In this document: one piece after another, positions 25,081 to 61,616 of the stretch | Layout of the letters: each line of letters begins with the position of its first letter | How positions within the stretch are numbered: the first letter of the stretch is position 1 | NCBI GenBank assembly: GCA_009760855.2 | Contig: WPIO01000069.1 | Coordinates: forward strand, 1,264,501 to 1,328,500 | Origin: Cristatella mucedo | Lineage: Eukaryota; Bryozoa; Phylactolaemata; Cristatellidae | DNA: 64,000 nt | Direction: 5' to 3' | Position numbers and translations under genes: made by a program | Notes under the pieces: model-generated | Seen by the model: the letters and a program-made list of their open reading frames with translations, nothing else | The model's database searches: none | Told to the model about the DNA's origin: nothing

Positions 25081-25356
25081 TCAATATAACTTAGAAGAGC
25101 TGTGGTTGGTCGCTTTAGCTTTTGAAAATGTCGATATCGATCGCGTTTCAGAAGTTTCATTGCTAACGCCAACTCGTGTTCCCGTTGCATTAACCTTTGA
25201 GGTCGACAAAGATGGAATTTGTTTGGCGGTATATCTGTCATAAGCCAATGTGTCGGTTGCTTTAAAATTTGAGGTCGATGCAGATGCAGAAATAATTGCT
25301 GTAGCTGTATTGCTCTCACGAACCCCTGTGTTTGAACTTCTTACAGAGTCACTGGT
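25081..25356 (-). CDS. IgSF receptor, terminal exon: Ser/Thr-rich cytoplasmic tail
   Basis: Acceptor CTTTGTAG at 25357-25364, then 91 codons in phase 0 starting TSDSVRSSNTGVRESN and ending SSSKLY with TGA at 25081-25083. Phase agrees with the donor of the transmembrane exon. The tail is rich in Ser and Thr and contains three imperfect repeats aligned on S-x-S-T: SASTSNFKAT, SLSTSKVNAT and SISTFSKAKAT. The DNA repeats are still visible (TCGACCTCAA twice). No ITIM or ITAM pattern is apparent. Open frames also exist in the other minus frame and on the plus strand, so the case rests on splice phase and composition. If the preceding weak donor is not used, the protein would end six bases after that junction instead. 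Confidence 0.5.
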   Translation of the reverse strand, partial: TSDSVRSSNTGVRESNTATAIISASASTSNFKATDTLAYDRYTAKQIPSLSTSKVNATGTRVGVSNETSETRSISTFSKAKATNHSSSKLY

Positions 25357-25434
25357 CTACAAAGTCAAATTAAGTTAGGCCAATTCAAGAGATTTATTAG
25401 AATGTCAGGGCCAATGTAAACGTATCTCCGTGTT

Positions 25435-25625
25435 CGTGTAAGCTCACAAAGCCACAGAGGCTATGCGGTTATAATGCAGTAGAATTTTCTAGAGTGCATT
25501 ACAAGCCTAAGCGGCTTTCAGCGCACGTAATATAGCCATTAGACTTTGCCTTGCACATTAAAGAGGAAAGTGACAAGTTCAGCTGAGTCAGGAAAGCAGT
25601 TGAGGTCGTAGAATCGCGGAAGCGG
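25435..25625 (-). mobile_element. LINE-B 3' UTR fragment
   Basis: Minus-strand match to the LINE-B UTR: GCCTAAGCGGCTTTCAGCGC and GAGTCAGGAAAGCAGTTGAG. Lies in the intron before the tail exon. Confidence 0.75.
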
Positions 25626-25829
25626 CAGGTCAGGAATAGTGTCAGTTGAAGGTTTTCAACCCACTTGTTATCAAAATTACAGAATCGCCTTCGGCAGAAC
25701 TGTAACCTATGCCTCGGTCACGACACAAGAGCACCCTAATCCTAGGCTAGTCTATCTGTATAAATGATATTACAGAAATATTGAACTTTTCCGTTGTAAG
25801 TGTCTGCAAGTAAGAAATACAACGACTTT

Positions 25830-26560
25830 TGATGTTGTCAAAGACTGTTGGAGAGGCCTGCCCCAACGTCGGTGCTGCAAAGCTACTTCGCAGCTGCCTA
25901 CGGCTGCCGACCACTGGGCCTCAAATGACTCATCGACCACACTCAGCTTCACGATAGTCCCGACCATGCTTGATGTTCACGTTCGTGAAGACATCGCCAT
26001 GTTTATTTCTGTCGTTTGTCTCTCGTCGTGCGACTAGGGGGTACTAGGAGGTACCAGATACAATGCTGTTCTTCCCCAGCCGGACTCACACTGCGCCGAC
26101 TAGCCAGCAGGCGTCCTGAGTACCGACTCATTAGGTGCTGCATTTGGACCGTATCGGCTAGCTAAGCTACGTTTAATTGGAACAAGTCAGCTGTGGTCAC
26201 GTGACCCATTTGTCCTGCAGCAAAGTAACTTTCTGCTCGTCCAACGGCCTGTTTGGACGCTATGCCCTCTCTTTCCCTCTCCCGCTCTTTTTCTTCTCTC
26301 GGCTCGCTCCGAAGTTGCTTCCATGACGGCTTCTGCATCCGTATTCACGATCGCTCTTTTGTGTTCGCCAGCATATGTTACAATACAGCCGTCGTCGTCA
26401 GCACCACAAATCCCTTCTGGGAGCCTCGTTCATCTTCGTCTCTCGGCCATCTGTATGCGAGCCCCTACACCAGTACAGGTCATATTCAATTCTAAACAGT
26501 CTGGTGCCATCGGTTCTTTCACAATACGTGTGCAAATGAAGTAGACAGAGGTTTTTGAGC
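25830..26560. other. GC-rich segment, unassigned
   Basis: Clearly higher GC and CpG than its surroundings. Short frames on both strands without motifs, and pyrimidine-rich stretches near 26265-26300. It lies in the large intron between the transmembrane and tail exons. Confidence 0.4.
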
Positions 26561-26639
26561 CCGAGTGTTGTGGGTGATCGAGGCTTAGTTACACAAAAAT
26601 TGCTTACTGGGTTTGACTTATCAACACTGCCTAGGGTTG

Positions 26640-58567: not shown

Positions 58568-59904
58568 CTTTGGATACGAGGCTAGAGGCACTTACTTGTA
58601 ATACTAATCCACCCTGTTAAGCAAATAGCTAAGGAAACTGACAGGTATGTAGAGCTTTCATCGCCTAGGATTAAAAGTATATATCTAAATGCGAAGAAAA
58701 CTAGTAACAATTACAAAAATACATTTGCAATTAATCCTTGGAGAACTGAACCGATTTCCAGGCACTTTAAACATGCGGCATAGATGCCGTTACATATTGC
58801 AATGGGGATGCAAGCTTTCAAAGCCAGGAAAGACTAAACAATGAATCTCAATTGACACGTTTGGATTCTTGAAAAATAAAGCAGCTTCAAAGCAATACCT
58901 TTGGCTACAGTACTTCGGCATTAATGTTGCCTAGCCATACTATTTTCGTATTAAGTTCCTAGCCCTTTTTATAACCCCGTTCGAATTTATTAGCACACGT
59001 AGTTATTATTTTGGCAGTTATATAAATAATATTTCATACGTAGAATGTCTTCTTACTGACTTGATCGGTATTTTGTGGAAATCACTCATTAGCTCCTTTA
59101 GTTATTATCAAAGCTTGTAACCAGCTAGCTGAACATGGTTTTATTCTCGTTAAGTGATTCTACTGTTTTGGTCCCGACATTTGAAGCAGGAAGCACATAC
59201 ATTATTGACTTTTTTTGAGTAGGTCCAAGTGCTGAGCGCTCAACTTGTAAGTATATAAATGGGAGACCACTACACAATTTTAGCCTGCTGCCCTTGTAAA
59301 GGCAACTTGTGAAACCTTTGAAGTCGCTCATGACTTTTTTTTGTCTCTCCGCGTTTTTAATAATAATGTCAATACTGCAGCACTGACGGGAATGCTTCTC
59401 TTCTGTGATGCTTGCTAGGTTTCTTACATTCCTTTGGACCATACTGATATCCCTATATGATGTGATGTGGCTACTGCCAGGCCTCATTTTATGCTATCAG
59501 GAACCTTGTGCTGTGATGGTTTAAAATACATTTCTATTGCTAGACTGCCTATGTAATTGAAACCCTTTACGCATAATCATGCTGCCGGTGCTGAATTGAT
59601 GTGAAAAGCTTATTTATGTTTTAATTTAAATGACTGTAATCAGTTCAAAAAATTGTAAGTTGGCTGTTGCGGCGCTTGCTCCGCTTAGTAATCTTCGTAT
59701 TAGAATTTACAGGCAATAACTTACAGCGTGCCGAATTCAATGAGAGCCGCACAAAAGCCTGGTTTGCCCGAAGAAAAAACAGTGAATGGGAATGGCTGCG
59801 ACACTTGTCAATGAAGCAGTGACTAATAGGTTACTAAATCTTCTGCTGTACGATATAATCTTGTAGGAGATACATAGGTATATGGTAATTATACACCTTT
59901 CATT
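58568..59904. other. Unassigned; longest frame 59125-59487 on the minus strand
   Basis: The 120-codon minus frame begins MRPGSSHITSYRDISMVQRN and has no Ig signature, no acceptor in a matching phase and no motif I know. Possibly a transposon relic. Confidence 0.35.
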
Positions 59905-60233
59905 TTGCCCACTCACTCCTGATTTGCTTCACAGTATCTCCTGACTTTACCACATTTATAAAGAACTTCAAACTCACCTATTTAGAAAAGCATGTAGTGG
60001 GTCCCTGTGATTCGTCCTTTATGTGCTTGCTTGTGCTGAAGCTGTGCATGCTGCCATGTACCACACGTGCATGCTGACCCTGTGCATGTCACCCCTAACC
60101 ACGTCATTCATGTTTTTTATCAAGCATAAAATTACTCACCCTGCAATTGCATTTCTTATTGCAATAAATATAAAGTGGCTACAAAGAGATTGATTTTCCT
60201 GAGGGCACTTTTTAAAGCGTATTATTATTATTG
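59905..60233 (+). mobile_element. LINE-A 3' end
   Basis: Starts at the ACTCCTGATTTGCTTC phrase; UTR TAGTGGGTCCCTGTGATTCG, degraded hairpin near 60170-60215, (ATT)n. The following 60234-60909 is AT-rich with nothing recognised. Confidence 0.88.
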
Positions 60234-60909
60234 TCACATTTACTATTAGTTCTATGATTACAATTATTAGTGACTATTTGATTTTTTATCAAAGGTGAAC
60301 CCAGTAAATCCAGCAGAATAAATCTTTTCATTTTTAGTGTAACACACATAACAATTTGGGAGTTTTTTTTAGAATGTATTAAGTGACTTATAGAAGTATT
60401 TATGATCTCTATGTGATAAGATATTAATTCTCAAGCGTTTTAATAGCCGCTGCACCAATCGTTCCTTAAGCTATTACCATAGGGACACTAATTCGCATTA
60501 ATGTGTAATTATGAACTTGAAATTGGAATGACGTTACGCGAAAGGTTGAATAAAAACGCAGCTTCTACCAGCAAATGTTAGATGTGGTTATGCAACCATT
60601 GTGCGAAAGGTTACCGACAATTGTACCTGGTTACCAACAGTTTCAGTGATGCATTAGCAGAAGAGAGAGGTTGGTCTTTCTGCTCTTTTGAGAATATATT
60701 AAAATATTGGGATTAAAAATATGAAATCCTGTCAAGGTAAGATAGTAGGTTATTTTTAGGAAAGCAAATTTACGAGACTTCATAAAGCTAGTAAAAGACA
60801 GTTTAAAATAATAACGATTGACACTAGCCTGGAGAGGTTTAAATGAATGTCTTAATAAAAAATGTGACCTCTATATCCTGATTGACTAGTGAAAGACTTG
60901 AAAAACTGC

Positions 60910-61092
60910 TATATATATATATATATATATATATATATATATATATATATATATATATATATATATATATATATATATATATATATATATATATATATAT
61001 ATATATATATATATATATATATATATATATATATATATATATATATATATATATATATATATATATATATATATATATATATATATATATAT
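60910..61092. repeat. (TA)n microsatellite, 183 bp
   Basis: Uninterrupted TA units about 125 bases downstream, in gene sense, of the first Ig exon's donor. Confidence 0.99.
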
Positions 61093-61217
61093 CCACCATC
61101 GGGGAAAAATTTAAAAGTTAAGTATTCATCGAAAAATTTCATTACTTGAGAAAGAAAAGTCATATTTTAATGTCATCCAGCAGTGAGTTCTTTAATAAAA
61201 TGAGTGAATTGACAAAC

Positions 61218-61616
61218 CTTTTGTTATTTTTACGTTGACCTTTCGCTCTAAAAGAATACCATTACGTAGCCTTTGGGTTCCTCCAGTACCAGCAACGAAC
61301 AGTCCCATTTTGTATGTCCCGCTATCACCAAAATTCATGTTTACTGTAGTTATTTCCAGATTCATATTAAATCCATCATCATTGTTTCTAAAGCACTTAA
61401 AGTTCATTTCAGCCAAGATGCCTAGCTGAACATCAGTTTGGAAGCACGGCGGATGACGAAGAATATTCGCTCTAGATTTTCGAACCTTGTCGCCTTCTTT
61501 CTCAAAGTAAAACATAATTGGCAAGTCAATGTTTTTAGCTTCGGCAGAAATGCGTCCTGCAGTACCTTCCGGACCTTCAATGCTCGTCACCTGAACCCTG
61601 AATGTGTATGGATAAT
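61218..61616 (-). CDS. IgSF receptor, first visible Ig-like domain exon (V-like, non-canonical)
   Basis: Acceptor AATTTATTTTAG, 399-nt exon in phase 1-1, donor G|GTTTGT. The 133 residues start YPYTFRVQVTSIEGPEG. The F-strand region reads NMNFGDSGTYKMGLF (positions 93-107), the D-S-G-x-Y motif of V domains with Met104 where the disulfide Cys normally stands. The B-strand region (AGRISAEAKN, 20-29) also lacks Cys. Cys58 and Cys75 are the only cysteines. Phase 1 at the start implies a preceding signal-peptide exon, not seen up to 64000. Linked to the other Ig exons by strand, phase and domain type over a 14-kb intron, so membership in the same gene is inferred. Confidence 0.7.

Follow-up and report, generated by a model that had tools for sequence, protein, structure and literature searches.

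Clustered and fast-changing receptors of the immunoglobulin superfamily (IgSF) are the suspected basis of self/non-self recognition outside vertebrates; only a few examples have been described. In Botryllus schlosseri, the fester co-receptors (FcoR) are described as proteins of 520-610 amino acids with a signal sequence, a V-type immunoglobulin (Ig) domain, a sushi domain, two C2 Ig domains and one helix; their tail carries an immunoreceptor tyrosine-based inhibitory motif (ITIM), a hemITAM (from ITAM, the immunoreceptor tyrosine-based activation motif) or a core YxxI/L/V motif, and their 53 loci are reported in arrays on three chromosomes, one array being FcoR only (PMC12065747). In Hydractinia symbiolongicarpus, the Alr genes are reported to lie in clusters that include pseudogenes and to encode single-pass IgSF proteins (PMC11067881, PMC11876637), their domains being described as V-set and I-set (PMC11999971). 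Here we analyse a stretch of 64,000 nucleotides (the window; C652:1264501-1328500, GC content about 0.40) from the genome assembly of Cristatella mucedo (572 Mb, 688 contigs), which holds on its minus strand a gene, gene A, that had been predicted as a split receptor gene hidden among transposons. We consider it fairly likely that gene A belongs to a family of type I membrane receptors that has expanded by tandem duplication, for which we propose a recognition mechanism.

Gene A and its paralogues

The original prediction described a split IgSF membrane receptor gene among transposons, with six exons of matched phases and GT/AG ends. In outline, a split type I IgSF receptor gene among the remains of long interspersed nuclear elements (LINEs) is correct, and re-derivation returned the coordinates and phases as follows:

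E1, 61218..61616, minus strand, phase 1 to 1, 132 whole codons: N-terminal domain, possibly V-like
E2, 46741..47124, minus strand, phase 1 to 1, 127 whole codons: six-cysteine domain with G-D-Y-x-C, probably V-like
E3, 46248..46562, minus strand, phase 1 to 1, 104 whole codons: C2-set Ig domain
E4, 42982..43254, minus strand, phase 1 to 1, 90 whole codons: membrane-proximal domain with four conserved Cys
E5, 30783-30545 to the proposed donor (phase 1-0) or 30539..30783 to its own stop, minus strand, 79 whole codons: plausible membrane helix and short cytoplasmic tail
E6 of the original prediction, 25081..25356, minus strand, phase 0-stop, 91 codons: Ser/Thr-rich tail, unconfirmed

The model as a whole is partly confirmed: E1-E4 are firm through their paralogues, E5 is likely, E6 is unconfirmed, and the 5' part of the gene is missing. 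The reading frame of E1-E4 is open over 453 codons with splice sites present; E1-E5, counting the codons at the four junctions and the last Val, amount to about 537 residues, or about 627 with E6. Donor scores within the gene are 0.42 for E3, 0.84 for E5 (gtttga), 1.48 for E1, 1.54 for E2 and 7.68 for E4.

Judging from their conservation, E1-E4 are real exons, far beyond chance, because their paralogues preserve order and strand and because one of these, gene B, preserves identity, phases and splice sites. Genome-wide exon matches, counted at an expect value (E) <= 1 with gene A included and to be read as lower bounds, number 22 for E3, 21 for E4, 12 for E2 and 10 for E1. E3 is followed by E4 on the same strand within 15 kb in 20 of the 22 cases, E2 has an E3 no more than 16 kb behind it in 11 of 12 (ten of these within 305 bases) and E1 an E2 or E3 no more than 20 kb behind it in eight of ten, where the expected chance of such pairing for a random match is <0.0004; many E1 and E2 matches are weak individually, yet correctly placed relative to the next exon. 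Unpaired matches are those of E3 at C624:1034801 and on C442 (weak), of E2 on C44, and of E1 at C652:1485005 and on C82. Pairs and singles, with the weak C442 match left out, resolve into 22 loci:

C624, 0.97-1.71 Mb: array of 14 loci
C652, 0.48-1.56 Mb: array of six loci
C99 and C659: one locus each

A phase-1 donor stands at the same position in 15 of 18 fetched E3 loci and in 17 of 18 fetched E4 loci; for the four without it, the fetched stretch was too short or a suitable site was missed by the script, whose choice of acceptor is displaced in a few loci. A tree of 19 E4 domains, which omits the short C659 piece that is the 20th member, has three starred branches among its 16 inner ones, and the C652 and C624 copies do not form separate clades. 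By these sequence matches, gene A belongs to a clustered family of about twenty related genes.

Gene B, about 81 kb upstream in a 323 kb piece that surrounds the window, carries paralogues of E1-E4 in the same order and on the same strand, with identities to gene A of 42% (E1), about 42-43% (E2), 46% (E3) and 51% (E4); its acceptors and donors, read by eye from the flanks, are all phase 1. Over E1-E4 the proportion of synonymous sites that differ between genes A and B (pS) is 0.73-0.90 and that of nonsynonymous sites (pN) 0.31-0.39; synonymous change is saturated, so that the ratio of the two rates (omega) is low but inexact, and the comparison shows purifying constraint at the level of sequence.

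Two further copies on C652 are damaged. Gene C (C652:1241157-1247740, loci L014 and L015), the family copy that follows downstream, is a decayed member: its E3 contains a stop codon and its E4 is broken. In gene D (C652:1454520-1485394), E1 and E4 are present together with a membrane exon that contains two stops; its E2 and E3 were not detected in the genome-wide exon searches. The E1 paralogues at C652:1407160-1407549 and C652:1485005-1485394 are both 42% identical to that of gene A, and the E1 starts on this contig (1326114, 1407549, 1485394 and 1555427) are spaced by about 81, 78 and 70 kb, a pattern that would fit tandem duplication of one large unit. The E2-E3 intron (window 46563-46740) is very short, with 122-305 bases between the matches in 10 of 11 paired loci, unlike the other introns of the family, which reach kilobases.

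The predicted extracellular domains

The prediction of four Ig-like domains holds in part: on the Pfam, PDB and titin-type comparisons, E3 is the only ectodomain shown to be Ig and E2 is likely to be one, whereas the Ig calls for E1 and E4 were not confirmed. E3 matches Pfam C2-set_2 with 22.1 bits in gene A (cut-off 21), and 19 of 20 family members match C2-set at E <= 0.01. Among the best 60 of 500 matching PDB sequences, its profile finds SYG-2 (3.9e-15) and Kirrel-1 (5.3e-8) at the top, together with DSCAM, contactins and JAM; the single sequence also matches CEA and JAM. Cys25, Pro32, Trp38 and Cys84 are invariant in 20 members. By profile, gene A thus has at least one Ig domain, which places it in the IgSF.

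E2 is probably V-like. Its six cysteines and the G-D-Y-x-C motif are kept in three aligned copies (25% identity to the C624 copy). In Pfam, the E2 of gene B matches ig at E=0.0048, which does not reach the curated cut-off, and that of the C624 gene has no match. A two-sequence profile finds CD276 at 8e-4, over the F strand only, and a three-sequence profile nothing below 0.13. E1 is possibly V-like: it has a DSGTY motif and Met in place of the second Ig cysteine, its Pfam matches (Ribophorin_II_3rd, E=0.045, and ig, E=0.13) are both under cut-off, and a search of PDB with E1 found nothing. Both E1 and E2 miss canonical Ig residues, as do the outer domains of Alr proteins.

E4 aligns across 20 members as SCN.F.SNPP...DC...C.C.Y...NWK; four cysteines are conserved, and most members have N-W-K at the splice. 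Its Pfam matches are scattered: one of the 20 members matches CssAB (5e-4), one lysyl oxidase (0.003) and two the Ig-like domain Transglut_C (best 0.0087). The E4 profile finds nothing below 0.066 in PDB and no consistent fold match, and comparison with the E3 profile aligns 25 columns around the first cysteine at a probability of 12.5%. In a comparison with eight titin-type Ig domains from this genome, the score of E3 was reached by 0 of 100 column shuffles, that of E2 by 3, of E1 by 6 and of E4 by 7.

A probable membrane exon and the 3' end

E5 is situated 12 kb 3' of E4 and follows a phase-1 acceptor (ttttttcag); it encodes a strong helix by hydropathy, then basic residues, and a pattern scan of its tail gives one YPSV (YxxV) motif. 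By analogy with its neighbours E5 is plausible as a membrane exon, because a membrane exon also follows E4 in genes B and D: in gene B it is phase 1, lies 7.8 kb 3' of E4 and terminates in its own stop, and gene D has a copy 49% identical to it, 4.2 kb 3' of its E4. Three results count against E5: its sequence is without paralogue in the genome, its triplet use gives no coding signal (312 of 592 null segments score as high), and a loose helix scan of the 43 kb of gene A returned 10 candidates, E5 itself accounting for two.

One codon past the proposed donor, E5 reaches a stop (DIQV*, the TGA at 30541-30539), and is probably the last exon. A further Ser/Thr-rich exon, E6, had been proposed beyond it. 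Its triplet usage is coding-like, with none of 592 null open segments as high, but by synonymous choice only 267 of the 592 are, and the coding-like usage is thus driven by amino-acid content. The accepted exons E1-E4 are likewise poor by synonymous choice (79-122 of 592); synonymous codon bias in this family is too weak to decide anything. E6 bears no likeness to the gene B tail (1695 of 2000 shuffles as high), and a genome search for paralogues returned only E6 itself. A reading of the E5 donor as weaker than the other donors of gene A was dropped, its 0.84 exceeding the 0.42 of E3; this donor does not speak against E6, because it scores no worse than accepted ones. E6 is nevertheless unneeded, since E5 has its own stop, gene B ends in its membrane exon and E6 is without paralogue, and we doubt that it is part of the gene.

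A proposed recognition receptor

The layout that we propose comprises two divergent, probably V-like domains (E1, E2), a C2-set Ig domain (E3), a four-cysteine domain (E4), and a helix with a YxxV tail (E5). If E4 is joined to E5, as we infer, the protein would be expressed at the cell surface, where the outer domains may bind either a ligand carried by an adjoining cell or a partner receptor of their own membrane, with E3-E4 serving as a stalk; phosphorylation of the YxxV tyrosine could then relay a signal to SH2 proteins. Gene duplication and loss would keep the repertoire changing, consistent with a putative role in self/non-self recognition. The idea of a recognition receptor, which was part of the original prediction, gains weight because multigene arrays exist; the Hydractinia Alr proteins named there are one option, and the FcoR layout fits closer.

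Several observations weigh against this reading and against its closest model. (i), a convincing signal-peptide or start exon was not found 5' of gene A: a strict scan gave one candidate upstream, a looser one 12 lines upstream of gene A and two of gene B, with no convincing gene A/gene B pair among them. (ii), the genome search with E5 gave no paralogue; the tails of genes A and B are not significantly alike (546 of 2000 shuffles as high), and the value for helix and tail together (39 of 2000) may merely reflect the hydrophobic helix. (iii), ITIM and ITAM patterns are absent from both tails. (iv), no sushi domain was matched by Pfam in two E1, three E2 and 20 E4 copies, though undetected exons elsewhere are possible, and the E4 profile matches sushi-bearing factor H proteins at chance level (E 1.4 and 4.8). 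(v), none of 57 genome matches to HECT genes lies on C652 or C624, though one FcoR array is described as FcoR only.

Comparison with FcoR and Alr

Among described kinds, the FcoR of Botryllus would be the closest, and that gene A is itself an FcoR is possible, a view we hold tentatively. Compared by description, the FcoR layout fits more closely than Alr in its length, in the order of its domains and in the YxxV motif of the tail. The likenesses, as far as the published account of FcoR describes them, are the multigene clusters at several places (here arrays on C652 and C624, singles on C99 and C659); the type I single-pass plan and the core YxxI/L/V tail motif, which the E5 helix and YPSV would provide given the putative E4-E5 join; the C2-type Ig nearer the membrane, and a V-type Ig outermost if E1, only possibly V-like (ig under cut-off), is of that type; and the length, E1-E5 before any signal peptide falling inside the FcoR range. 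The GC content of the window is also close to the 40.5% reported for Botryllus (PMC12448946). The differences are these: the sushi domain is undetected in the gene A family; FcoR have two C2 Ig domains, whereas here E3 is C2-set and E4 is without a consistent Ig match; and the gene A tail shows no ITIM or ITAM (the hemITAM pattern was not scanned separately). For the fester partner (FF), one sushi-like spacing pattern run over the 323 kb piece gave one match, inside LINE-like sequence; no genome-wide search was made. On C99, a single HECT match stands some 140 kb away from the family member there, and at C31:518498-534311 several HECT-domain pieces stand in a row, some with stops, resembling a small tandem HECT array. 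Searches with GH6, a marker of tunicate cellulose synthase, and with DsRed gave no match, though the GH6 result does not demonstrate absence; the LINE reverse transcriptase found no relative among bacterial and archaeal genome contigs, and these negatives are not decisive.

Alternatively, the family may represent a new complex of at least twenty genes with its own four-domain plan, including a new four-cysteine domain, that would be independent of both Alr and FcoR, in an animal without a known complex. We regard this as rather unlikely; if true, it would offer a case for testing whether such systems have evolved repeatedly out of the same parts.

That the family is instead the Alr allorecognition family of cnidarian type, so that gene A would be Alr-like and part of an allorecognition complex, appears improbable. 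The published Alr pattern, clusters of IgSF genes and pseudogenes for single-pass proteins (PMC11067881, PMC11876637), matches the gene A family, which is clustered in the same way, and the missing canonical residues of E1 and E2 would fit as well; the C2-set E3 and the four-cysteine E4, in contrast, are without counterpart in the V-set and I-set domains described for Alr (PMC11999971), and the window GC of about 0.40 differs from the 37.26% of the preliminary Podocoryna assembly (PMC13119343). On this comparison of descriptions, Hydractinia Alr is the looser likeness.

The E3 profile, closest to SYG-2 and Kirrel-1 within the PDB matches considered and reaching DSCAM, contactins and JAM, and the CEA and JAM matches of the single E3 sequence, would also suit an expanded family of ordinary adhesion proteins of nectin, Kirrel or JAM type with developmental rather than immune tasks. 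From general knowledge, about 22 divergent loci, mostly in dense arrays and with one decayed copy, seem unusual for such proteins; the gene A family differs from them in its array expansion, its divergent outer domains and an E4 without consistent match, and we give this explanation little likelihood. Least of all do we expect gene A to be a recent family pseudogene, in which E1-E4 are intact relics and E5 merely resembles a membrane exon: the start exon not found upstream, the lack of paralogue or codon signal for E5, the decay of gene C and the stops in the gene D membrane exon would agree with it, but E1-E4 remain open throughout with splice sites in place.

Repeats and other features

A nearly complete LINE occupies window positions 8347-11295 on the minus strand, with endonuclease (263 amino acids) and reverse transcriptase (684 amino acids) frames interrupted by a break between 10401 and 10504. 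Pieces of reverse transcriptase occur at 14.8-15.4 kb, over the Pfam cut-off, and at 53.9-54.3 kb, below it; similar fragments, judged by eye only, lie at 36.5-36.9, 44.1-44.5 and 54.7-55.1 kb. An AT dinucleotide run of 114 copies (window 14583-14811) sits within a degraded LINE reverse-transcriptase frame, and a perfect TA run of 91 copies (window 60910-61092) in the intron after E1, about 125 bases past the E1 donor. Elsewhere in the genome, C111:10696941-10823374 holds a large I-set array, partly in an open frame of 2993 amino acids, which resembles a titin-type muscle gene.

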